Source: a virus. From it: a stretch of 36,150 nt of DNA. The notes under the pieces are model-generated. The model saw nothing but the letters and a program-made list of their open reading frames with translations, was not told the origin of the DNA and searched no databases. The stretch is from IMG/VR virus record IMGVR_UViG_3300010933_000069, positions 1 to 36,150 of that record. The stretch is one strand, 5' to 3'. Shown here piece after piece: positions 1,303-15,121 of the stretch. The position numbers and the translations under genes were made by a program. The first letter of the stretch is position 1, and every line of letters starts with the position of its first letter.

Positions 1303-1491
1303 ATGTATCATATTATTGTTGAATTTCTTCCAATTCCTGTTTTGATGTACGTTGTTTCTGTATCTTGGAAGGTATCAAAGAAGTTTACAACAACAGATTT
1401 GAAACTAGATCAGGTTGTGGAGAAGGTGGATAGATTAATCATCTCACATGACGAACTTGGCCAACGCGTCGCATCTGTTGAGGGGAACTAA
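1303..1491 (+). CDS. Small membrane protein with coiled-coil tail
   Basis: A 62-residue protein preceded by a GAGG box. Residues 3-24 are hydrophobic (a single membrane segment, IIVEFLPIPVLMYVVSV). Residues 33-60 are a heptad-like amphipathic stretch (LDQVVEKVDRLIISHDELG). This one-TM plus coiled-coil layout is common for XhlA-like or other lysis-accessory proteins. It sits just before the endolysin, which supports a lysis or membrane role. No specific family is claimed. Confidence 0.6.
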   Translation: MYHIIVEFLPIPVLMYVVSVSWKVSKKFTTTDLKLDQVVEKVDRLIISHDELGQRVASVEGN

Positions 1492-3519: not shown

Positions 3520-6342
3520 TTATGCCTCAGGCCCTAGATTATTTTGTTTACCCCAAACATTCAAATTAAGAATCTGATCAATCTCAATACGCCTCCATTT
3601 ATCATGAATCCTGCCCTTGATCAAGTACCAATCTTCACCAACCTTTCCAGTCTCAGCAATATCTCTACCCATAGACTCGTAAGCATATCTATTTACAGTG
3701 GCTACGATTGAATCTGTATCATCTTCCATGATCAAATTAAGGAATAGCGTATGATCTGTGATATATCTGCCACCTCTGCGCGCGAGCAATTGACTTTCGT
3801 TGAGATTGCGAATATTTCGATCTAACATTTTTCCTACAAACAGATAAGTTCCTGTGCCAACTATCGTTTCGATTGTGACCGGAGGCTCTTCTAATCCAAA
3901 CTCTTTTGGATCATTGAAAAATCCACCCCACCAATGCTCACAAGGGAATAGAATTGTGAATGGAGTATCAGGATTCATAAGCATGTGCACCATTGAAGGT
4001 TTGTAATCTTCTAATCCATCACGACACTTCAATATTGCTTTTGCCTTTTTTGGACCGATACCCTTCAAACTCAGGAGCCCCCCAAGAAGTTTCCCATCTT
4101 GGATGGACCACCTTTCCACAGATTTATCTGGATCAAACGCTGTGTATTCAATACCATCGTTCTTTACCAAATCTCTGAGAATTTTGATAGCATGATCTTC
4201 ACGTTTCGCATTGTTAAGGTTGGCAAGTGCAAATTCCAGAGGATGGTGAGCCTTCGCCCATGCAGTCCAGTACGATATGATTCCGTATCCGTATGCATGA
4301 CTCTTATTGAACCCATAAGAGCCGAAAGTGACAATTGACTGCCACACATTGTCCGCTTCTTGCTCATTATCTCCATTTTCAATTGCTCCTGCAATGAATT
4401 TATCTCTATATTCGTTGAGAACACTTTCACCAAGACTTTTGCTCATTGCTTTTCTCAACGCTGAAACGTCAGACCAACTAAGATTTCCATATTCTCTAGC
4501 AATACTCATTAGTTGTTCTTGATAAACAATGACTCCATACGTTCCTTCGGTATATTTAATGACGCTAGGATGTTTAGAAATATATCTAATGGGATCATCA
4601 CCGTTCCTGCAAGCAATGAAAGCATTAGTCCCGCCACTATGTATGGGACCAGGGCGCGCAAGGGCAGTGATTGCACATATATCATCAAAATTCTGTACTC
4701 CCATCTGCCTTGTTACATACTGAAGTGCATGACCTTGGAACTGAAATATACCTGAAAGCCTTAAACTATTGAAAATATCTAACGTTGCCTTATCATCTAG
4801 AGGCAAATCATAATAGTCGCTATACTTCATACCGATCTGATCAGCTACAGATTCAAGCACCGATAGCGTTTTCAATCCAAGGCAATCTATCTTGAGCAAA
4901 TTCAACTTTTCAGCGTCGCGATAATCCATCATCAATGCACCATCTCTTGAATTAACGCCGCCGTATTTTGTTAGCTTATCGTTACAGACGATGATTCCAG
5001 CTGCATGCACTCCAGAATGTCTAGCGTGCCCTTCAATTTTATACACTATCTTCATCTCTGGATATTTTTTGATAAATTCCTGACCTACCTCAGTGTCATT
5101 AAATGTATCTTGAACTCTCATCATAGATCTATCATGCCCGAGAGGTCTTTCAACTATTGCAAGCTTAACAGCATCAGTTTCATATTCAGGTATTCCTAAT
5201 TCCACAGCAAATTCGCCAATTGATGATTTTGGTTTCATGGTCGATACAGTTGCTATGTGGCTAACATGATCTTCACCATAGATAGCCGTAAGACTTTTGA
5301 TAACTACTGCGCGTTTTTTGTCAGGGAAATCAATATCAATATCAGGCAAATCTTTCCTGTTTACATCGACAAATCTCTCGAACAGTAGATCGAATCTGAT
5401 AGGATCAACTTCTGCTATTTCAGTTAGGAAGCATACTAATGATCCAGCAGATGAACCTCGCGATGGGCCGACCAACATCTTACGCTTCGCCGTTCTAGTC
5501 ATCTGAGCAACTATAAGGAAATAGTCTGCAAAATTCTTGTCATCAATTAGCTTTAACTCACGATCTAATCTCTCACCGTACCTTGGATCGCTAAGGTTAA
5601 TTTTTCGTTTCCTAGCACCTGAGACGCAAAGTTCTCTCAGTGTAATTTTACCTTTGTACTTAACCATATCAGCCACTGGCAAATCGTAGCTCTCACATTG
5701 TTCCGCTATCAGATGCGTATTCTTGACGGCTTCAGCATATCCACGTAGCCTCAACCATTCTTCTTCAGACATAATATGCTGTGGAAACGTCTGCGCTTCC
5801 ATCTTTCTGCGCCCTACATGTAGCTGGTATACTTCCCTATCATCCGCATCTGGATACCAATTTTTACAGATCGCTACTTTCGGTATTTCAGGCCATTGCG
5901 CTATTACATCTGGTGTTGTTTGGTCTATTCCAATATAATCAATCCTATTAGTCATGTTGAATGTCGTTGCTATGACTATAATATTGTTACTGATCCGTCT
6001 TAGATTTGATTGGAACAGTCTAGGATGGTAATAAAACTGATCGTGCGCTACCTTCACTATCTGATATAATTCGCTTAGACCAGCTTGATTTTTTGCTATG
6101 AATATATAGACTGGGCCGAACAACTTCACCTTTTCAATAGGCTTATCAATAACCATCAGTCTGACGCCGAGAATTGCTTTCACGCCCGCATCTTTACACG
6201 CTTTATGATGGCCTAAATGAGCGAATGTATTGTTATCATCCGCTACACCTATTGAAAAACCATTTGAATAGTGTACGATATTTTTAGTGAAGCCGTAGCA
6301 TTTCTTGAAACTGAATTCAGTTCTGAGAGCGAGGTGAATCAA
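3520..6342 (-). CDS. dnaE: DNA polymerase III alpha subunit-like replicative polymerase (DnaE type)
   Basis: A family-C DNA polymerase of about 940 residues, shorter than bacterial DnaE. Order: PHP domain at the N-terminus (FAHLGHHKACKDAG, ILGVRLMVID), then polymerase core with GPSRGSSAGS and the catalytic DIDIDFPDKKR, then helix-hairpin-helix (LSLKGIGPKKAKAIL), and an OB-fold-like C-terminal part. The N-terminus reads HLALRT where active PHP domains have HxHxxxS, so PHP nuclease activity is probably lost. I prefer the TTG at 6342: it has AAAGGG six bases upstream, overlaps the exonuclease stop, and puts MIHLALRTEF at the family's usual start. An ATG at 6366 is the alternative. It replicates the phage genome, with the adjacent exonuclease the likely proofreader. 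Confidence 0.9.
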   Translation of the reverse strand: MIHLALRTEFSFKKCYGFTKNIVHYSNGFSIGVADDNNTFAHLGHHKACKDAGVKAILGVRLMVIDKPIEKVKLFGPVYIFIAKNQAGLSELYQIVKVAHDQFYYHPRLFQSNLRRISNNIIVIATTFNMTNRIDYIGIDQTTPDVIAQWPEIPKVAICKNWYPDADDREVYQLHVGRRKMEAQTFPQHIMSEEEWLRLRGYAEAVKNTHLIAEQCESYDLPVADMVKYKGKITLRELCVSGARKRKINLSDPRYGERLDRELKLIDDKNFADYFLIVAQMTRTAKRKMLVGPSRGSSAGSLVCFLTEIAEVDPIRFDLLFERFVDVNRKDLPDIDIDFPDKKRAVVIKSLTAIYGEDHVSHIATVSTMKPKSSIGEFAVELGIPEYETDAVKLAIVERPLGHDRSMMRVQDTFNDTEVGQEFIKKYPEMKIVYKIEGHARHSGVHAAGIIVCNDKLTKYGGVNSRDGALMMDYRDAEKLNLLKIDCLGLKTLSVLESVADQIGMKYSDYYDLPLDDKATLDIFNSLRLSGIFQFQGHALQYVTRQMGVQNFDDICAITALARPGPIHSGGTNAFIACRNGDDPIRYISKHPSVIKYTEGTYGVIVYQEQLMSIAREYGNLSWSDVSALRKAMSKSLGESVLNEYRDKFIAGAIENGDNEQEADNVWQSIVTFGSYGFNKSHAYGYGIISYWTAWAKAHHPLEFALANLNNAKREDHAIKILRDLVKNDGIEYTAFDPDKSVERWSIQDGKLLGGLLSLKGIGPKKAKAILKCRDGLEDYKPSMVHMLMNPDTPFTILFPCEHWWGGFFNDPKEFGLEEPPVTIETIVGTGTYLFVGKMLDRNIRNLNESQLLARRGGRYITDHTLFLNLIMEDDTDSIVATVNRYAYESMGRDIAETGKVGEDWYLIKGRIHDKWRRIEIDQILNLNVWGKQNNLGPEA

Positions 6343-6872
6343 ATCAATCCCTTTTGCTCCATCCATTGATAACAACGGATCATAGCTAGCACATCTGACT
6401 TTGCTCTGTGAGCATCCTCATGAGCGTGACCGGTAGCTAGCATATGCAAATCTTTCAACGATAGCCTTTTATGCTTGATAGACGTTGATTTCTCAACCGT
6501 GCATAACCAAGTTGGAGACCAAGGAAAATGAAACTCTAATCTGTGCCTAGCCAACTCCGACCATAGAACGCCTAGGTCAAATGATACATTGTGACCCACA
6601 GTAATTCGCTCACCCATGAATAGATCTACCAATCTATCGTACACTTCGATAAATTTTGGCGCATTTGCTACTAGTTCATTAGTGATCCCACTGACCTTGG
6701 AAGTTTCATCAGGTATCGGTATTGGAGGCTTGATAAGCGTTTCAAATTCATCTATGAAACTAAGCTTATCGGTTAACTTGACCACGTAAATTTCTGTTAT
6801 GTATGGCTGTAAATGCAGAGATGCCGCATCAGGCTTCAGCAATCCCGTGGTTTCAGTATCTATAAATATCAA
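6339..6872 (-). CDS. DEDD 3'-5' exonuclease (DnaQ/RNase T-like), probable proofreading subunit
   Basis: A 177-residue exonuclease with Exo I (DTETTG, beginning at residue 5), Exo II (HNVSFDLG) and Exo III (HRAKSDV) motifs, which supply the four acidic residues and the His of the DEDDh family. TTG at 6872 is chosen because GGAG stands six bases upstream, it directly follows the previous stop, and it gives the usual MIFIDTETTG start. A TTG at 6896 is also open. It overlaps the DnaE-type polymerase by four bases, so translation is coupled and the two proteins probably act together as polymerase and proofreader. Confidence 0.87.
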   Translation of the reverse strand: MIFIDTETTGLLKPDAASLHLQPYITEIYVVKLTDKLSFIDEFETLIKPPIPIPDETSKVSGITNELVANAPKFIEVYDRLVDLFMGERITVGHNVSFDLGVLWSELARHRLEFHFPWSPTWLCTVEKSTSIKHKRLSLKDLHMLATGHAHEDAHRAKSDVLAMIRCYQWMEQKGLI

Positions 6873-8871: not shown

Positions 8872-8887
8872 GATTAACCCCTTTCAT

Positions 8888-9010
8888 TTATATTTCACAA
8901 TCTTCATCATCATCGAAAATTTCAAACGCGAAAAACGGCCACTCCAAATAAAAATCAAATGCGAATGCAACCGTATTCTTATTGGTATGAATTTCTACGA
9001 TTATTCGCAA
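8888..9010 (-). CDS. Small acidic-tailed protein with TTG start
   Basis: A 40-residue frame starting with TTG at 9010 and ending in TAA at 8888-8890, just before the next gene's ribosome-binding box. The box AAAGGGGTTATCAA immediately precedes the TTG, the same sequence as upstream of the other leftward genes, which is the main reason to call it. The product begins RIIVEIHTNKNTVAFAF, then an aromatic-rich strand and a DDDEDCEI acidic end. No family recognised. Confidence 0.5.
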   Translation of the reverse strand: MRIIVEIHTNKNTVAFAFDFYLEWPFFAFEIFDDDEDCEI

Positions 9011-9028
9011 TTGATAACCCCTTTCATT

Positions 9029-9325
9029 TGGAACACGTAAAAAGCGGGAATGGCGACCTATTAATGTGCCGCTATTCTCCTCACAAGAGCGCTGGCTTTG
9101 TCCCTGTAGGATTGTGAGTCCCCAGTAGTTTGTCCAGCCTTCATTAAATCACTCCCGCTTCCTATGGTGGCTACTCCTCGTAGGTTTCGCCTCCACTTGA
9201 AACCCGTCCGACTTTGCGCAGAAGTCTAGTTACCGGGCTTGTTCAAACGTTGTTGAGAGTTGTACCAGAAAGAGAAAGATTTGAGTTAGTTTAGCGCATA
9301 GGCAACCCCCTTACTTATACGGTTG
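9029..9325. other. Structured mostly noncoding region downstream of an HNH gene
   Basis: Nearly 300 bases with few long frames and many self-complementary stretches on the leftward strand: GACTT with AAGTC (around 9212-9230) nested between AAGCCCG and CGGGTTT; CTAC with GTAG; GCTGG with CCAGC; and GAATAGCG with CGCCATTC. A repeated GGACAAA is also present. It lies directly 3' of a free HNH gene. It could be a structured RNA, a degenerate group I intron or a leader for the downstream gene. I do not see a complete set of group I core elements. Confidence 0.4.
9061..9144 (-). CDS. Possible 27-residue miniprotein
   Basis: ATG at 9144 with GGGAG upstream (spacing about 7) opens a frame to TAA at 9061-9063 encoding a basic peptide (MKAGQTTGDSQSYRDKASAL, then VRRIAAH). 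The same frame is open upstream to a TAG without a standard start. It lies inside a strongly structured stretch, so it may be chance. Kept because the start site is reasonable and the peptide has a protein-like composition. Confidence 0.3.
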   Translation of the reverse strand: MKAGQTTGDSQSYRDKASALVRRIAAH

Positions 9326-9760
9326 TTACAAATGTGTCCAGCTTTTGCCTATTTTTATACTGCGAATTGTATGATAACTAACACTATATTGATCAGCAAG
9401 TGAATATCGTGAATCTTTTGATGCTCGAATTTCTAAAACTTCTTTCTCATTCAAAACAGTTGTTCCTGAGCGACCCCTCACATACATATCTCTTGCGTTG
9501 TCTTTTTGCGTACCATCACTTAAATGTTTTGGATTAACGCAGAGAGGCGTATCGCATGAATGAAGAACATTATTTTTAGGTTGAGATCCATGAGATAATG
9601 CATAAGCTACTCTATGAGCATACATTATTTCACACTTAGCCGCAACTTTCCCATAACCCTTGCCCCATTGCGGTCCATCCCAAATTACACAGTCGCCTTT
9701 TTGATGTTTTGGAGTTTGCATGAATTTTGTAACGATAAATTTTGACATACCGTTCATCAT
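9326..9760 (-). CDS. HNH homing endonuclease
   Basis: A 144-residue protein with the phage HNH core HSCDTPLCVNPKHL, preceded by the AHRVAYAL helix and followed by the DNARDMYVRGRS linker typical of free-standing homing endonucleases. The C-terminal 40 residues (EKEVLEIRASKD, then a helix-turn-helix-like YSVSYHTIRSIKIG) would bind target DNA. ATG at 9748 (MSKFIV) is an equally good start; neither has a strong ribosome-binding site. It stands alone between a terminator and a structured region, as a recent insertion would. Confidence 0.85.
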   Translation of the reverse strand: MMNGMSKFIVTKFMQTPKHQKGDCVIWDGPQWGKGYGKVAAKCEIMYAHRVAYALSHGSQPKNNVLHSCDTPLCVNPKHLSDGTQKDNARDMYVRGRSGTTVLNEKEVLEIRASKDSRYSLADQYSVSYHTIRSIKIGKSWTHL

Positions 9761-10244: not shown

Positions 10245-10381
10245 TAGTTCCCACCTCGCTCGCCCTTCTTTGTCGGCCTAATATAGAGACTCCCACAATG
10301 GCCGCAAATTCTTGGAGGTGAGATGGATACGTAGCTTCTCACCTGAAAGCATCGCAAGCATTTATAGAACTGAATGCTCAT
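10244..10381 (-). CDS. 45-residue zinc-ribbon miniprotein
   Basis: The ATG at 10381 overlaps the previous stop (ATGA) and the frame ends in TAA overlapping the next start. Two Cys pairs, CLRC (residues 8-11) and CGHC (residues 27-30), form a likely zinc ribbon, followed by a basic tail (RPTKKGERGG). The coupling at both ends makes a real gene likely despite its size. Function unknown. Confidence 0.6.
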   Translation of the reverse strand: MSIQFYKCLRCFQVRSYVSISPPRICGHCGSLYIRPTKKGERGGN

Positions 10382-10554
10382 GACGGGCGGTCGATCACGT
10401 GATACCCATAATCGCTATCCATCTCTTTTGCACGTTGATTGCGAGCCTCTGCGTCCTTGGATGCCTCATCCTTATCGGTGAAAGCAGCGATGAAACTTTT
10501 GGCCGAGGAGACAACCCAAAATGGCCTGTCGTAAATCCTACTATGATCATTCAT
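10378..10554 (-). CDS. 58-residue hypothetical protein
   Basis: Preceded by the conserved AAAGGGGTTAAGC box, starting ATG at 10554 and ending TGA at 10378-10380. The sequence MNDHSRIYDRPFWVVSSAKS continues with a charged helix (DKDEASKDAEARNQRAKEMD) and ends DRPS. The WVVSSAKSF-type strand followed by a helix resembles small alpha/beta phage proteins, but no family is recognised. First gene of a four-gene coupled set. Confidence 0.65.
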   Translation of the reverse strand: MNDHSRIYDRPFWVVSSAKSFIAAFTDKDEASKDAEARNQRAKEMDSDYGYHVIDRPS

Positions 10555-10632
10555 GCTTAACCCCTTTATTTAGAAATCTCAGCATTAAGATTCCCATATC
10601 CACGACACGCCTGTGCCGGGGATAAAGCAGAC
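10555..10632 (-). promoter_or_regulatory. Intergenic structured element, copy 0 (divergent)
   Basis: Leftward reading begins right after a stop codon and ends with AAAGGGGTTAAGC and ATG. It has a hairpin TATCC-CCGGCAC/GTGTCG-TGGATA and a second hairpin AATCT/AGATT just before the ribosome-binding box. The layout (large hairpin, small hairpin, box) matches the other copies, but the arm sequences differ, so it is the most divergent member. Confidence 0.5.
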
Positions 10633-10947
10633 TTAATACTCTTGGATAAGCAGTAGAAGTTCACGCATATAATCAGCGGACACTTCTATAGTACGCTCGT
10701 CATTCTTGGGATTGCTCAAAACGTTCACAGCTGCAGTTCTCAGTCTCACAGTATAATCTGCGGGCTTCCCAACTTCTTCGATCTTGTCATCGATCAAGTT
10801 GAGGCTGGTATGGATAGTCCTGACTAGATTTCTCCACTACGGCAAATTTTCTTCGACAATTTCATGCTCTTCAAGCAATTCGTTTAGCATTACGTCGATT
10901 TCTTCTGCCCATCTATATCCAGAAAACTTGTTATCATTATCGCTCAT
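10633..10947 (-). CDS. Hypothetical protein interrupted by an in-frame TAG
   Basis: ATG at 10947 follows the AAAGGGGTTAAG box exactly. The frame runs 36 codons (MSDNDNKFSGYRWAEEIDVM, then an acidic helix ending EENLP), meets TAG at 10837-10839, then stays open for another 67 codons (WRNLVRTIHTSLNLIDDKIE through MRELLLLIQEY) to TAA at 10633-10635, directly before the next element. No start codon suits the second part alone. The whole 103-residue product looks like one alpha-helical protein. Options: nonsense mutation, sequence error, or amber readthrough. TAG is a normal stop elsewhere here. Confidence 0.6.
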
Positions 10948-11021
10948 CTTAACCCCTTTCAGATCTGAATTGATACTTCATTCCAGTTACTCTAGTTAGA
11001 GTAACCGGAATAAGCTATCAA
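10948..11021 (-). promoter_or_regulatory. Intergenic structured element, copy 1
   Basis: Starts at the base after a TAG stop and ends at the next ATG. Outer stem P1: TTGATA with TATCAA. Inner stem P2: ATTCCGGTTACTCT with AGAGTAACTGGAAT, 14 bp with one G-U, loop AACT. The flanks GCTT and GAAG are internal loop. In this copy the downstream arm is replaced by a 12-base palindrome (TTCAGATCTGAA) overlapping the AAAGGGGTTAAG box. Confidence 0.75.
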
Positions 11022-11318
11022 CTAAGCGCCCATCCTTGGAATCCTCATCTCTCTAGCTTTGTCAAGCCACCCTTTGATTTGCTCTAGATTACCTTGGGAG
11101 ATATTCTTCGCATATAGCGTCAAGTGGAGGCTAGATCCTGCGAATCCTGTATTGATGAACCAGGGATAAAATTCGTCAGGTGTAACGTTCGGGATACTAA
11201 CTTCAAAACGCCCTTCTCTGAGTCCAAATGGACCAGACTCATCTGTGAAGGTCGCTTCTGGAAATTTTTCCTTGATTACTTTCTGAGCCTCTGGCTCATA
11301 GATCAGATCTTGAAACAT
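11022..11318 (-). CDS. Hypothetical protein (98 aa)
   Basis: Starts after AAAGGGGTTAAGT and ends TAG at 11022-11024, which touches the next element. Alternating strands and helices (IPNVTPDEFYPWFINTGFAG, HLTLYAKNIS, then a basic helix) suggest a small globular alpha/beta protein. No family recognised. One of the cassette-like genes flanked by structured elements on both sides. Confidence 0.7.
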   Translation of the reverse strand: MFQDLIYEPEAQKVIKEKFPEATFTDESGPFGLREGRFEVSIPNVTPDEFYPWFINTGFAGSSLHLTLYAKNISQGNLEQIKGWLDKAREMRIPRMGA

Positions 11319-11390
11319 ACTTAACCCCTTTATGCGTACCGAATTGGTACTTTACTAGAATCACGTTAATGACCCTAGTAAGCTACCAAC
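11319..11390 (-). promoter_or_regulatory. Intergenic structured element, copy 2
   Basis: P1: TTGGTA with TACCAA. P2: TTACTAGGGTCA with TGATTCTAGTAA, 12 bp with two G-U, loop TTAACG. Alternative P3: GTACC with GGTAC across AATTC, so the arm GTACCAA can pair upstream (P1) or downstream (P3). The AAAGGGGTTAAGT box follows seven bases later. Confidence 0.8.
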
Positions 11391-12245
11391 TTATCTCTGA
11401 AGAAATTCGTACGCTTCTGTTTGCTCTTCTCTGCAAAACTGCTGCATTTCATAATCTTGTCCCCATTCACGTTCACAGTAAATGGCTATGCCTCTATGAT
11501 CTGCAGCAACTTTCTTTTTAGCTCTTTTAGCATCAGCAGTGGCAATTAACTTTCTCAGATCTTCATCATTACGTCGATTTATTTCAGCAACTGCTGGGAT
11601 TGCCTTTTCAAACTTAACGAGGCAATCATGTGCATCGCTCCAGTGAACCTCTTGGTCTTCAATCAATCCATCCTCCGCGCCAATGCCACCGTTTGTTATA
11701 AGGCAAGTCCTGTAATTATGAATAGGAAGATCGTATGGTGGATGTTTTTTTCCACGATGTGTAAAGCTAGCTGATGAGAGAAATACTTTGCGCATAAGCG
11801 TTCTGTTGTTATAGCACCATTCTGAATTTTCTCTGCCGGTCTCAGGATGTATGAATCCCACACACTTAGTTTTAAACCAATCCTCCATCCAAGGTGATTC
11901 ATCATGATGTGTTACAATGTATAGCTCTGGATCGCTCTTAGCTTTGCGGGCCGAGCGGTATACAACCAACATCGCTAATCGTTCACCAAAAGTTTTTTCA
12001 TTTGGCTCAGAGTCTTTTGCTACCGCAATTATTTTTGAATATATTGAAGAGCTACATCCTTGAACCATCCAGAGTAAACGATCTGCTTCCTCCACAGTGA
12101 ATTCAGCTGATTGGACATATTCTTCAAAAATATCCATCTTAGCTCGGCACTCTTTTTGATCAGAATCCATAAACTGAAGACGGATTACAATTGAGATCAG
12201 AACAATCGGCGCACTAATTAAAGCAATTTTTATTTTCTTACTCAT
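11391..12245 (-). CDS. Membrane-anchored or secreted hypothetical protein (284 aa)
   Basis: The ATG at 12245 follows AAAGGGGTTAAGAAT; the longer open frame upstream overlaps another gene and is rejected. Residues 1-25 (MSKKIKIALISAPIVLISIV) form an uncleaved signal anchor or signal peptide. The rest is soluble with six or more Cys (KECRAKM, QGCSSS, KCVGF, WCYNNR) and a C-terminal motif CEREWGQDYEMQQFCREEQ. That Cys-Trp-Asp-Met-Cys pattern recurs, from memory, in exported bacterial proteins of unknown function. Probably acts in the periplasm or at the inner membrane face; the Cys pairs fit disulfides. Longest gene of the array and unlike replication proteins. Confidence 0.7.
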   Translation of the reverse strand: MSKKIKIALISAPIVLISIVIRLQFMDSDQKECRAKMDIFEEYVQSAEFTVEEADRLLWMVQGCSSSIYSKIIAVAKDSEPNEKTFGERLAMLVVYRSARKAKSDPELYIVTHHDESPWMEDWFKTKCVGFIHPETGRENSEWCYNNRTLMRKVFLSSASFTHRGKKHPPYDLPIHNYRTCLITNGGIGAEDGLIEDQEVHWSDAHDCLVKFEKAIPAVAEINRRNDEDLRKLIATADAKRAKKKVAADHRGIAIYCEREWGQDYEMQQFCREEQTEAYEFLQR

Positions 12246-12322
12246 ATTCTTAACCCCTTTCATCGTGCCGCAATTGGCACTCGTTTCCCTGTAGCTTCTA
12301 ACTACAGGGAACCGGCTGCCAA
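12246..12322 (-). promoter_or_regulatory. Intergenic structured element, copy 3
   Basis: P1: TTGGCA with TGCCAA. P2: TTCCCTGTAG with CTACAGGGAA, 10 bp perfect, loop TTAGAAG. P3: GTGCC with GGCAC across AATTGC. Ends with AAAGGGGTTAAGAAT and ATG. Begins immediately after the TAG stop of the upstream gene. Confidence 0.85.
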
Positions 12323-12802
12323 CTACAGATACTCGATTCCACCACCACACAAGTGACAAGTATATTTCCAGGTGCGATTCAAGCGTCTACGCCCGGTATA
12401 CTCGTGGGTGCAATCTATGCATACGGCTACTACGAATGCCTTTTTACGCTTAAGGTGCTCGTAAGGATGGTATATATCTGGCTTGATCCCAAATATCTTA
12501 CACCATCGTGCCCACTCCCAACCATGGGCGCGGACATCTTGAGCGAAACAATGCGCCAGCTCGTGAAGGAACGTATTATAGATCGCATCCCAAGCGTTCC
12601 CTGGAGTTAGCCAAAGCCTACTAGCCAATCTAATGATATGCGTTCCATCGTTATACCTTGTAGCAGTACCTGCCTTACGCTTGTACTTAGCCTTGACCAC
12701 TTCAGTTATTCCAAGTTCAGGCCTTTTTGAAATTGCTACGAGCGCACCATCCATGTCGTAGCCTCGCCGTCGCAGCTCGGATATCATTTCATTGACTGTC
12801 AT
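12323..12802 (-). CDS. SprT-like zinc metallopeptidase
   Basis: A 159-residue protein with HELAH (His80, Glu81, His84) and a third ligand candidate His93 in AHGWEWARWCKIFG, the signature of SprT/Spartan-type proteases. A C-terminal zinc ribbon is formed by CIDC (128-131) and CHLC (149-152). A TTG three bases upstream of the ATG is also open. SprT-like proteases in eukaryotes cleave DNA-protein crosslinks; phage versions may degrade host DNA-bound proteins, which is inference. Unlike its neighbours it does not have an AAAGGGG box. Confidence 0.85.
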   Translation of the reverse strand: MTVNEMISELRRRGYDMDGALVAISKRPELGITEVVKAKYKRKAGTATRYNDGTHIIRLASRLWLTPGNAWDAIYNTFLHELAHCFAQDVRAHGWEWARWCKIFGIKPDIYHPYEHLKRKKAFVVAVCIDCTHEYTGRRRLNRTWKYTCHLCGGGIEYL

Positions 12803-12844
12803 CAACTTATGAGTCCCAAATCTTTGCTTCTCTCGATATGGCTA

Positions 12845-12955
12845 TTAACTTTCTCTGCGAATCTCGTCGAGAAGATCCTTCAGCATTTCGGCATCTTCGC
12901 CAGCTTCTGCGATCTTGCGATCGGCTTCAGATTCTTCTTTACGTGTCACTATCAT
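12845..12955 (-). CDS. 36-residue charged helical protein
   Basis: ATG at 12955 preceded by AAAGGGGTTGAGA, stop TAA at 12845-12847. The whole protein is one likely helix (TRKEESEADRKIAEAGEDAE then MLKDLLDEIRRES). Presence of a complete structured element and ribosome-binding box upstream makes it a genuine gene despite its size. Function unknown. Confidence 0.6.
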   Translation of the reverse strand: MIVTRKEESEADRKIAEAGEDAEMLKDLLDEIRRES

Positions 12956-13033
12956 TCTCAACCCCTTTCATCGTACTTCAATTAGTACGTCATTCCCATT
13001 ACTCTAATTAGAGTAACAGGAATAAGCTACTAA
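12956..13033 (-). promoter_or_regulatory. Intergenic structured element, copy 4
   Basis: P1: TTAGTA with TACTAA. P2: ATTCCTGTTACTCT with AGAGTAATGGGAAT, 14 bp with two wobbles, loop AATT. P3: GTACT with AGTAC across AATTGA. Compared with copies 2 and 3, both paired positions change together (A-T for G-C), which is true covariation in all three arms. Box AAAGGGGTTGAG. Confidence 0.85.
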
Positions 13034-13399
13034 CTAAGCAGCCAGCTTGACTGCTAGTCGCGCGATGTCGGTTCGATTGAACGCAACGTTACTGATAACC
13101 TTGCGCCCGGTGTCACGAGTCACATAGCCCATCGACGCCATGATGCGCGCCGCGCGGGAGCGAGCCTTGTCACAGTTGTCCTGGTCGATAACGCGAATCG
13201 CTACGTGATCGTCCATACCTCTGTGGGCTTCACCGATCATGTCGATTCGGATATGGTAGCCTTCCGTCTCGACTGTGATCCTACCGTCCAGCTTGGAGCG
13301 AAGAGAATCATACGCCGAAACCTTGATCCCAGTGGACTCCGCGTCCAGGTTACGTCGCAGATCATCGGCCCATTTGTTTACACGAATATTTCTTGCCAT
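13034..13399 (-). CDS. Hypothetical basic protein (121 aa)
   Basis: Box AAAGGGGTTAAGCT precedes ATG at 13399. The protein is basic and alpha/beta (RNIRVNKWADDLRRN, GYHIRIDMIGEAHRG, DKARSRAARIMASMG) and ends in a helix (RTDIARLAVKLAA). The composition suggests nucleic-acid or ribosome association but no family is recognised. Stop TAG abuts element copy 4. Codon use is more GC-rich than in neighbouring array genes. Confidence 0.7.
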   Translation of the reverse strand: MARNIRVNKWADDLRRNLDAESTGIKVSAYDSLRSKLDGRITVETEGYHIRIDMIGEAHRGMDDHVAIRVIDQDNCDKARSRAARIMASMGYVTRDTGRKVISNVAFNRTDIARLAVKLAA

Positions 13400-13479
13400 A
13401 GCTTAACCCCTTTATTTCGTATCGAAATTGATACGTCATACCGCCAACGCTTTTAAGCGTTGACGGTATAAGCTACCAA
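13400..13479 (-). promoter_or_regulatory. Intergenic structured element, copy 5
   Basis: P1: TTGGTA with TATCAA (one G-U). P2: ATACCGTCAACGCT with AGCGTTGGCGGTAT, 14 bp with one wobble, loop TAAA. P3: GTATC with GATAC across AATTTC. The box AAAGGGGTTAAGCT and ATG follow. The element starts right after TAA at 13480-13482, the end of a seven-residue remnant frame. Confidence 0.85.
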
Positions 13480-13560
13480 TTAGGCTGGTTGATCGGCAAC
13501 CATTTAACTTGGAACACTCGGATAGTCTTATGACTACCTACCAAGCACCTAAACCAGAAG
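13480..13560 (-). other. Vestigial cassette: degenerate element plus 7-codon remnant
   Basis: Reading leftward from the stop of the 215-residue gene there is CTTGG paired with CCAAG around TAGTC/GACTA (loop ATAA), then AAGTTAA and ATG at 13503, a seven-residue frame (MVADQPA) and TAA at 13480. This keeps the order of a normal unit: stop, hairpin, shortened box, start, stop. It looks like an array unit whose gene body and most of the ribosome-binding box were deleted. Confidence 0.45.
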
Positions 13561-14208
13561 CTAGCCAGCTTGGACGCTACGTACCACGCCCAGGATGCGC
13601 TTGTAGAAGCGCGCCTGACTCGCCTTCTTGCCTTGCTCCTTGACCCAGGCATCGAACTCAGCATCCGTGGATCCAGGATTGGCCGTCACCCATGCCAGGA
13701 ACTTGGTACGGAAGCCAGTGCGAGCACCTCCACCACCGCCGGTTCCCTTGGGCTTTGTCGGCAGCTCGATCTTCTGCTCTGCGGCGAACTTCTTCAGAGT
13801 CGCCAGAGCCTGCTTCTCGTCGGTGGCATCCAGCTCCTGAGCCAGATACTCGCAGATCTTTGTGACTTCGTTCCAATCCTTCGGAGCGAAGTCAACCTTG
13901 AGAAGCAGCTCGCTCGCCTGTTCGAGACGATCTTTGGAACTCATGCGAATTCCCAGATCTTCCAGAACTCTACGAAGCAGCCGTCCAGCTTTCTTGAACG
14001 GAAAGCCTCCCTGCTGAATCAGCGTGATTGCCATTTCATCCTCGCTCTTGCCAGCCTTGGCAAGCGGCTCGATGATCTCACGCGCCTTGGCCATTTCGAG
14101 CTGAAGCTGACTCGGCTCCGCTGCCACAGCAGGCTCCGCTTCCTGATTGCCAATAGTGACAATCATTCCAGCTGCCTTGGAATACTTGCGGGTTTTTCTT
14201 GTGGACAT
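13561..14208 (-). CDS. Hypothetical protein, helical with Gly-rich linker (215 aa)
   Basis: Starts after AAGGGGTTAAGACAAA. Basic N-terminus (MSTRKTRKYSKAAG), a helical central part (about 40-150; RLLRRVLEDLGIRMSSKDRL, KICEYLAQELDATDEK), a glycine-rich linker (GTGGGGGARTG, about 160-170) and a C-terminal basic helical domain (FRTKFLAWVTANPGSTDAEF, KASQARFYKRILGV). The two-domain basic layout suggests DNA or RNA binding, but no family is recognised. GC-rich codon use compared with its neighbours suggests a different origin. Confidence 0.65.
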   Translation of the reverse strand: MSTRKTRKYSKAAGMIVTIGNQEAEPAVAAEPSQLQLEMAKAREIIEPLAKAGKSEDEMAITLIQQGGFPFKKAGRLLRRVLEDLGIRMSSKDRLEQASELLLKVDFAPKDWNEVTKICEYLAQELDATDEKQALATLKKFAAEQKIELPTKPKGTGGGGGARTGFRTKFLAWVTANPGSTDAEFDAWVKEQGKKASQARFYKRILGVVRSVQAG

Positions 14209-14293
14209 TTTGTCTTAACCCCTTGTCATATCGTACCGAAATTGGCACGTCATTCGGTGTACTCTTTTAAGAGTATACCGAATAAGCTGCCAA
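14209..14293 (-). promoter_or_regulatory. Intergenic structured element, copy 6
   Basis: P1: TTGGCA with TGCCAA. P2: ATTCGGTATACTCT with AGAGTACACCGAAT, 14 bp with one A-C mismatch, loop TAAA. P3: GTGCC with GGTAC (one G-U) across AATTTC. Followed by AAGGGGTTAAG with a longer gap (ACAAA) before ATG. It starts just after the TAG stop of the upstream gene. Confidence 0.85.
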
Positions 14294-14588
14294 CTAATTT
14301 GTTTCGTTCGATGCTTCCAAAGCGCGTTCGAGACCAGCGATCAGGATATCGCATGCGTTGGGAGAATCTTCTCCCCAGATCCAATCCTTGAATTGCTCGT
14401 CGTCTAGCCAGTCGTATCCGCATTCTTTAGCGACGCCCACAAGCCTTGTCACCACGCTCTTCTGCCAAGAGCGCCCAATTAATGGAGCTGTTAGGCAAAA
14501 AATCCTCGTTGTAAGCAGCATTAATAGCATCGGTAAAAGCGTTAACCAAAGCAATCCGCTCCGCAGTGGTACATTCCGGTTCGCTCAT
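14294..14588 (-). CDS. Hypothetical protein, frameshifted at a T6 run
   Basis: ATG at 14588 follows AAAGGGGTTAAGAA. The first frame (MSEPECTTAERIALVNAFTD, then AINAAYNEDF) reads into TAA at 14427. The downstream frame carries protein-like sequence (SWQKSVVTRLVGVAKECGYD, WLDDEQFKDWIWGED) and ends with a stop that abuts element copy 6. One T too many in the T6 run at 14497-14502 accounts for the shift; with T5 the product is one 97-residue protein. The slip site reads GAT TTT TTG, the same as in the HNH gene at 3494-3499. Function unknown. Confidence 0.6.
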
Positions 14589-14665
14589 TTCTTAACCCCT
14601 TTCATTTGTATCCAAAATGGATACTCGCAAAAGCGTAACAATACGCTTTTTAGAGTAACCAAATT
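14589..14665 (-). promoter_or_regulatory. Intergenic structured element, copy 7 (first of the array)
   Basis: Inner hairpin AAAAGCGTA with TACGCTTTT, 9 bp perfect, loop TTGT. P3: GTATCCA with TGGATAC, 7 bp across TTT. The P3 left arm can alternatively pair with TGGTTAC upstream (6 of 7 pairs). Then AAATG and the AAAGGGGTTAAGAA box. The upstream boundary adjoins a noncoding gap rather than a stop codon, so this may be the 5' end of the array transcript. Confidence 0.75.
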
Positions 14666-15121
14666 GGGGTCAGGCGCGCAAGCGCCAAACCCCCTAATTA
14701 GTTATTTCAGGGTTAAGGGGTTTTTCTTCTATAATCTGAATCGGGCGACGACACACAAACGGCAGAGCCCCAGTACGTCTGGGCGGGTTTTACTCTCGGT
14801 ACAGGTGCTCGATCCTTACTCAACAGAGGGGCCTCTCGGCTCTACCGCTATTCAGTTTTTCAGTACCCTTATAGCTTCTAGGTATGAGGGAAGTATCGGC
14901 TACTCGGCAATGAAAGTAAAGGGGAAATCGGAATAAATACGAAATATCTGAAAAAGCCCTAAAAGACCGAAAAAGAGGCTGTAAGTACCCGGAATCATTA
15001 GAGTTTTTTAACGGTCGCTTGCAACCTCTCTAAATAGCCTACCCCCCTACCTAGAACTACCTACTCGGCTAGATCGGCCCTTACACGCGATCCTGAGAAG
15101 CCCTATTTCGGCCTGAAAGGC
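14666..15121. other. Hairpin-rich noncoding gap
   Basis: About 455 bases without a convincing gene. GGGGT-CA-GGCGC (14666-14677), loop GCAA, GCGCC-AA-ACCCC (to 14693) forms a strong hairpin readable on either strand. CCCAG/CTGGG surrounds TACGT at 14769-14783. A second CCCC...GGGGTTTTT pairing (14690-14719) could act as a rightward stop and competes with the first hairpin. It separates the helicase cluster from the small-gene array, so it probably holds a leftward promoter, but I see no hexamer pair good enough to name. Confidence 0.45.

Follow-up and report, generated by a model that had tools for sequence, protein, structure and literature searches.

A repeated RNA element between the small genes of a tailed phage: two mutually exclusive covarying pairings and a possible route of cutting and refolding

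RNase III sites recur along the operon of phage T7 (R0.3, R0.5, R1, R1.1, R1.3 and others), each of them a hairpin with an internal loop between the end of one gene and the ribosome-binding site of the next. In T7 R1.1 RNA, the RNase III of E. coli cleaves one phosphodiester (PMC4858673). Cluster K mycobacteriophages carry inverted repeats, SAS/ESAS, just upstream of many small-gene starts; departures from the ESAS repeat do not support RNA pairing, and the authors favour DNA-binding sites (PMC3203893). For the E. coli messages ahpF, pflB and yajQ it has been proposed that an RNase III cut stabilises the RNA by leaving decay-slowing hairpins at the new ends (PMC5371410). Here we describe a short element that is repeated on the minus strand of the IMG/VR virus record IMGVR_UViG_3300010933_000069, which was analysed at its full length of 36,150 bases (the window). 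It shares the layout and the repetition of the T7 sites, and, like SAS/ESAS, it consists of inverted repeats placed just before small genes. The analysis supports the view that this is a repeated RNA element whose arms covary and in which selection has kept two pairings that exclude each other.

The minus-strand gaps at 10.5–14.7 kb of the window were read and folded. They hold six canonical copies (c1–c6) and two divergent ones (c7 and c8). In canonical copies P1, formed by arms A and B (8 columns), is followed by a 2×2 internal loop with GC on its 5′ side and by stem P2 of 12–16 bp, which closes on a small loop; downstream of arm B come a short linker and arm C, and then AAAGGGG and the start codon. 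P1, the internal loop and P2 form a nearly continuous duplex of about 20–24 bp. Arm C is complementary to B and to the two 3′-side bases of the internal loop, with which it forms P3; P3 and P1 compete for arm B, and the two pairings are thus mutually exclusive. All copies in the window fold far better than shuffled sequences (z −3.6 to −7.1). An earlier note on this DNA had described the A, B and C arms of copies 2–6, the hairpin between A and B, the AAAGGGGTTAAG-type site and the start codon, all of which we find as described. The B:C pairing that it proposed is real, but longer than it stated, because it takes in the two loop bases (CGTACC..GGTACG). The AAAGGGGTTAAG stretch, which the note counted as a part of the element, is the general ribosome-binding site of the phage; it also occurs where the element is absent, at 8884 and 22769, and therefore does not belong to the element. 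The ribosome-binding site lies in none of P1, P2 and P3.

Pattern and protein scans for relatives yielded 14 further distinct copies from three other phage genomes, and all three helices covary across the copies. Among the 20 copies, 96.2% of the cells of the P1+P2 hairpin are paired and 16 of the 20 pairs show two-sided changes; on each of five measures none of 500 shuffles was as good. P1 alone is supported on four of the five measures, the number of pair types being not unusual. For P3, 116 of 120 cells are paired, and none of 5000 permutations of whole C arms did as well. The claim that the arms change together, with two exclusive pairings maintained, is thus borne out for P1 and P3, and P2 covaries as well. 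The two bases of the internal loop lie outside P1 and pair with C in 37 of 40 cells, a result equalled by 1 of 5000 permutations, or by 33 of 5000 if each of the 13 distinct B/C combinations is counted once; this covariation supports P3 independently of P1. P3 is at least 5 bp long in 19 of the 20 copies, as against 6% of composition-preserving shuffles, and begins at the first 3′-side base of the internal loop in 17 of 19. Two copies from one relative (L171a and L171e) have a mismatched P1 and an intact P3. A8, G9, C10 and T49, and with them the GC on the 5′ side of the loop, are invariant in all 20 copies, and the U-G pair at columns 12–45, beside the loop, is kept in 16. The copies are related by descent and duplication, hence these statistics overstate their independence.

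The covariance model, R1, was built from the hairpin only, with arm C left out. One L015 copy and two L171 copies were first found by patterns that included part of C. The 11 outside copies that were found without a C requirement or that lie on contigs reached through another copy (L15a–d, L16a–c, L5a, L171a, b and d) all have a P3 score of at least 5. The three helices, their covariation and their geometry are observed features of these sequences.

Each of c1 to c6 is recognised both by its folding score and by model R1. P1, the 2×2 loop and P2 of c1 span 10968–11023 (minus strand, as for all copies below), but P3 is lost there, and in the copy series of the earlier note the full plan holds for c2–c6. 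The corresponding hairpin of c2 (11342–11391) precedes a 98-aa open reading frame (ORF; 11022–11318), and its P3 hairpin, GTACC-AATTC-GGTAC, lies at 11336–11350. Copy c3 (12272–12324; P3 GTGCC-AATTGC-GGCAC, 12265–12280) stands before an ORF of about 284 aa that ends at 11391, and c4 (12980–13035; P3 CGTACT-AATTGA-AGTACG, 12972–12989) before one of about 36 aa. The 121-aa ORF at 13034–13399 is preceded by c5 (13426–13481; P3 CGTATC-AATTTC-GATACG, 13418–13435), and the 215-aa ORF at 13561–14208 by c6 (14240–14295; P3 CGTGCC-AATTTC-GGTACG, 14232–14249). The two divergent copies, at 14661 and 10640, keep the plan, each with a 7-bp P3, but their sequences differ and neither is matched by the covariance model. 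Copy c7, before the first gene of the operon, has its lower and upper stems at 14618–14661 (fold z −4.5) and its P3, GTATCCA-TTT-TGGATAC, at 14608–14624. Copy c8, recognised by its folding score, has a lower stem, an internal loop and an upper stem at 10581–10640, before a 58-aa ORF (10378–10554), and its P3, AATCTTA-ATGC-TGAGATT, at 10575–10592 includes one wobble pair. A copy does not stand before every small gene; the SprT-like gene at 12323–12805 lacks the element.

The element fits the T7-type layout, in which a hairpin with a lower stem, an internal loop and an upper stem stands between two genes of an operon; no sequence relation to the T7 sites was seen. The reading that we favour, and to which we give about an even chance, is that the hairpin is a processing site of the RNase III type, like those between T7 genes, to which refolding has been added: cutting at the internal loop would free B, and the B:C pairing would cap the new 5′ end. 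The hairpin made of P1, the internal loop and P2 would be the substrate of a double-strand-specific RNase, most likely the RNase III of the host, which would cut it at the 3′ side of the loop, just as the T7 intercistronic sites are cut. This would part arm B from arm A and leave B as the 5′ end of the downstream message, where it would refold with C into P3, flush with the new 5′ end or a few bases from it and just before the ribosome-binding site. The P3 cap would block 5′-end-dependent decay of the 5′-monophosphate product, and the upper stem left on the upstream message would block 3′ exonucleases. A 5′-terminal stem is reportedly a barrier to 5′-end-dependent decay (from the works of Emory, Bouvet and Belasco, cited in PMC3997798). 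A loop kept between two covarying stems, together with a P3 that begins where the loop ends P2, is what an element of this kind would need. Taken alone, the 3′ product starting at the first 3′-side loop base is predicted to adopt the P3 fold in 19 of 20 copies. In 17 of them P3 starts at that very base, so that the product opens with the stem and has no free 5′ base; in c2 and c3 one 5′ base is unpaired.

Several points weigh against processing followed by refolding. The RNase target suggested in the earlier note has become the leading reading; in it, which nuclease acts, where exactly it cuts and how the cut affects stability are inferred. With a cut a few bases into P2, P3 would no longer lie flush with the new end. 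Copy c1 has no P3, and in five copies P3 is predicted to win over P1; with fold energies so nearly equal, refolding may not need a cut. Differences from T7 have to be counted here as well: the upper stems of the T7 sites are shorter (about 9–11 bp, against 12–16 bp for P2) and AAGGTC-type, whereas P2 is variable in sequence, and the T7 sites have no general arm C. Of eight T7 sites, R1.1 has a comparable downstream stem (7 bp), R3.8 has a doubtful one that reaches into the start region, and the rest have none above shuffles. The E. coli cases differ too, as ahpF, pflB and yajQ are single host genes that are not known to carry a third arm with alternative pairing repeated through an operon (PMC5371410).

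The predicted energies of the folds restricted to P1 or to P3 are less than 4 kcal/mol apart in 19 of 20 copies (7.1 kcal/mol in c1), so bistability, as put forward in the earlier note, is possible. A switch that works uncut, in which a ribosome terminating at the upstream stop, or another factor, covers A, lets B pair with C and thereby alters re-initiation or decay of the downstream gene, would profit from these nearly isoenergetic folds; we nevertheless rate it below the processing reading and consider it doubtful. As such a switch would have it, the preceding gene's stop codon is in most copies either inside arm A or at most 7 bases from it. Openness of the ribosome-binding site, computed with 35 nt of downstream sequence, is predicted to have a median of 0.04 with P1 and of 0.10 with A freed; freeing A raises it in 12 of 18 copies and lowers it in four, the largest rise being that of c5 (0.03 to 0.33). 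The change, however, is small and inconsistent in direction, and the plan persists where the stop is missing or remote: the first-gene copies c7 and L171a have no upstream open frame ending there, and the 215-aa gene upstream of c5 ends 82 bases away. The plan is therefore independent of upstream translation, as c7 and L171a indicate, and ribosome coupling is not a general requirement. Translation control, another proposal of the earlier note, is not supported in the form of a simple occlusion switch that hides the ribosome-binding site, because the site lies in none of the element's helices; its predicted openness is low with either fold, and a modest effect is possible. Nor does the element have the aptamer-like core of a ligand-responsive switch: there are only the 2×2 loop and short linkers. 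More broadly, we tentatively entertain a genetic switch that acts as a regulon device: in each gap B would pick one of its two covarying partners, and the choice would be set operon-wide by the ribosome or by a trans-acting factor of the phage or the host, which would so control message life or re-initiation.

The invariance of A8, G9, C10 and T49 and the retention of the U-G pair would also suit a site for an RNA-binding protein of the phage or host, which would read the invariant bases around the loop and control the operon genes jointly. Such a site alone explains neither arm C nor the covariation of the loop bases with C, and no candidate regulator was found, the 215-aa operon protein having no significant fold match and no match in phage records; we regard this explanation as unlikely. 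Stable hairpins do occupy most gaps, but if they were passive stabilisers or spacers, neither cut nor switching, they would need no kept internal loop and no B arm common to two covarying helices, which makes this quite improbable. A DNA-level element (a recombination, protein-binding or promoter site) would account for inverted repeats recurring between cassette-like small genes, but it is very improbable, given that wobble pairs are kept on one strand, that model R1 scores the sense strand about 30 bits higher and that the region has no sigma-70-like promoter on the minus strand. That the U-G wobble next to the loop is conserved speaks for RNA rather than DNA, and the outcome named in the earlier note as its refutation, a DNA recombination or protein-binding site, is not what the sense-strand wobbles and the RNA covariation indicate. 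The element departs from ESAS, as that note had said: its pairing is preserved, with strong RNA covariation (0 of 500 shuffles as good), it has a third arm, and its genes start with the motif AAAGGGGTTAAG instead of the 13-bp GGGATAGGAGCCC of ESAS (PMC3203893).

Two further classes of element were tried and rejected. The only minus-strand match to an intrinsic terminator, defined as a GC-rich stem with a T run directly after it, lies at 13043–13025; it is a different short stem that overlaps c4, and such matches are no commoner than in shuffles. The arms do not fit the RYYYAAC/GTTRRRY core of integron attC sites, as judged by eye.

The window carries tailed-phage genes (polymerase, primase, helicase, terminase and portal), and its DNA polymerase is closest, among named phages, to those of Vibrio phage vB_ValP_VA-RY-3 and Cronobacter phage vB_CsaP_Ss1 (about 48% identity). 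The element was found in the window and in five IMG/VR contigs, all metagenomic. In 3300010933_000065 the operon is identical to that of the window; 3300031669_000412 has 8 copies, which 3300031539_003084 repeats where the two overlap; 3300037247_000692 has one copy and 3300043173_000807 five. Before an orthologous gene of about 120 aa, P2 is the same except for its loop in the window (c5), L015 and L171, whereas the protein is only 39% identical between the window and L015; slow RNA evolution or local recombination could be responsible. Copies before an orthologous gene of about 220 aa, in L016 (210–319, minus strand) and L171 (7181–7280, plus strand), have an extra hairpin, P4, between P3 and the ribosome-binding site; the two P4 hairpins differ in sequence, but each is self-complementary.

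Rfam 15 gave no match in the window at the gathering threshold, and 50,697 phage records gave no match to the element. A search of phage records for similar DNA found none near for window bases 1–25000, and only chance matches for the c5 element. A pattern scan of genome contigs showed the element layout, among the matches listed and folded, only in viral contigs; viral pattern scans gave only chance matches beyond the five contigs. Model R1 found no element in polymerase or helicase relatives (L006–L011, L154–L160) or in the named Vibrio and Cronobacter phages, and a structural scan of L154, L155 and L005 revealed no lookalike set. Scanning with a descriptor of the three-arm plan yielded 23 matches, against 4 in shuffles, and those outside the family looked unrelated; looser pattern scans, with many chance matches, were not used as statistics. 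The earlier note knew of no description of this form, and a limited search of the open-access literature, like Rfam, found none.

Some features of the operon and its surroundings deserve mention. The 215-aa protein belongs to an all-helical family that the phages with the element have in common and that has one relative, at 32%, in L184; its structure model is all-helical, of moderate confidence, and its weak, sub-threshold Pfam match is TilS-like. As a regulator it was rejected for want of a significant fold match. The first gene of the operon, after c7 (14294–14588, minus strand), corresponds to a protein of about 93–97 aa in relatives but is divided over two frames, and the same split is present in contig 3300010933_000065. 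In three genomes a GC-rich hairpin directly precedes the operon's first element (window 14660–14740, minus strand; L016 about 1343–1440, minus strand; L171 6725–6785). Near that of the window, AACCCCTTAACCC complements part of the start motif GGGGTTAAG, and in L171 the long gap preceding the operon contains tandem-like repeats of GTGTAGATAGCGTTAGAAACGC (6170–6400). Elsewhere in the window, the minus strand of 9010–9310, which adjoins an HNH endonuclease ORF (9326–9760), is non-coding, conserved in L004 (88%) and partly in L005 (3490–3578, 84%), and without an Rfam match at E ≤ 1; it is possibly an unidentified structured RNA or an intron-like element.

The element offers a clear case of covariation in which two mutually exclusive helices are under selection in a multicopy phage RNA. 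It is short, occurs in up to 8 copies per genome with differing sequences, and carries natural compensatory changes, which makes each step testable in vitro. If cutting and refolding do take place as proposed, a phage operon would be split into single-gene messages at sites that bear their own end-capping refold, and this would be a compact route to a separate message life for each gene of one transcript.

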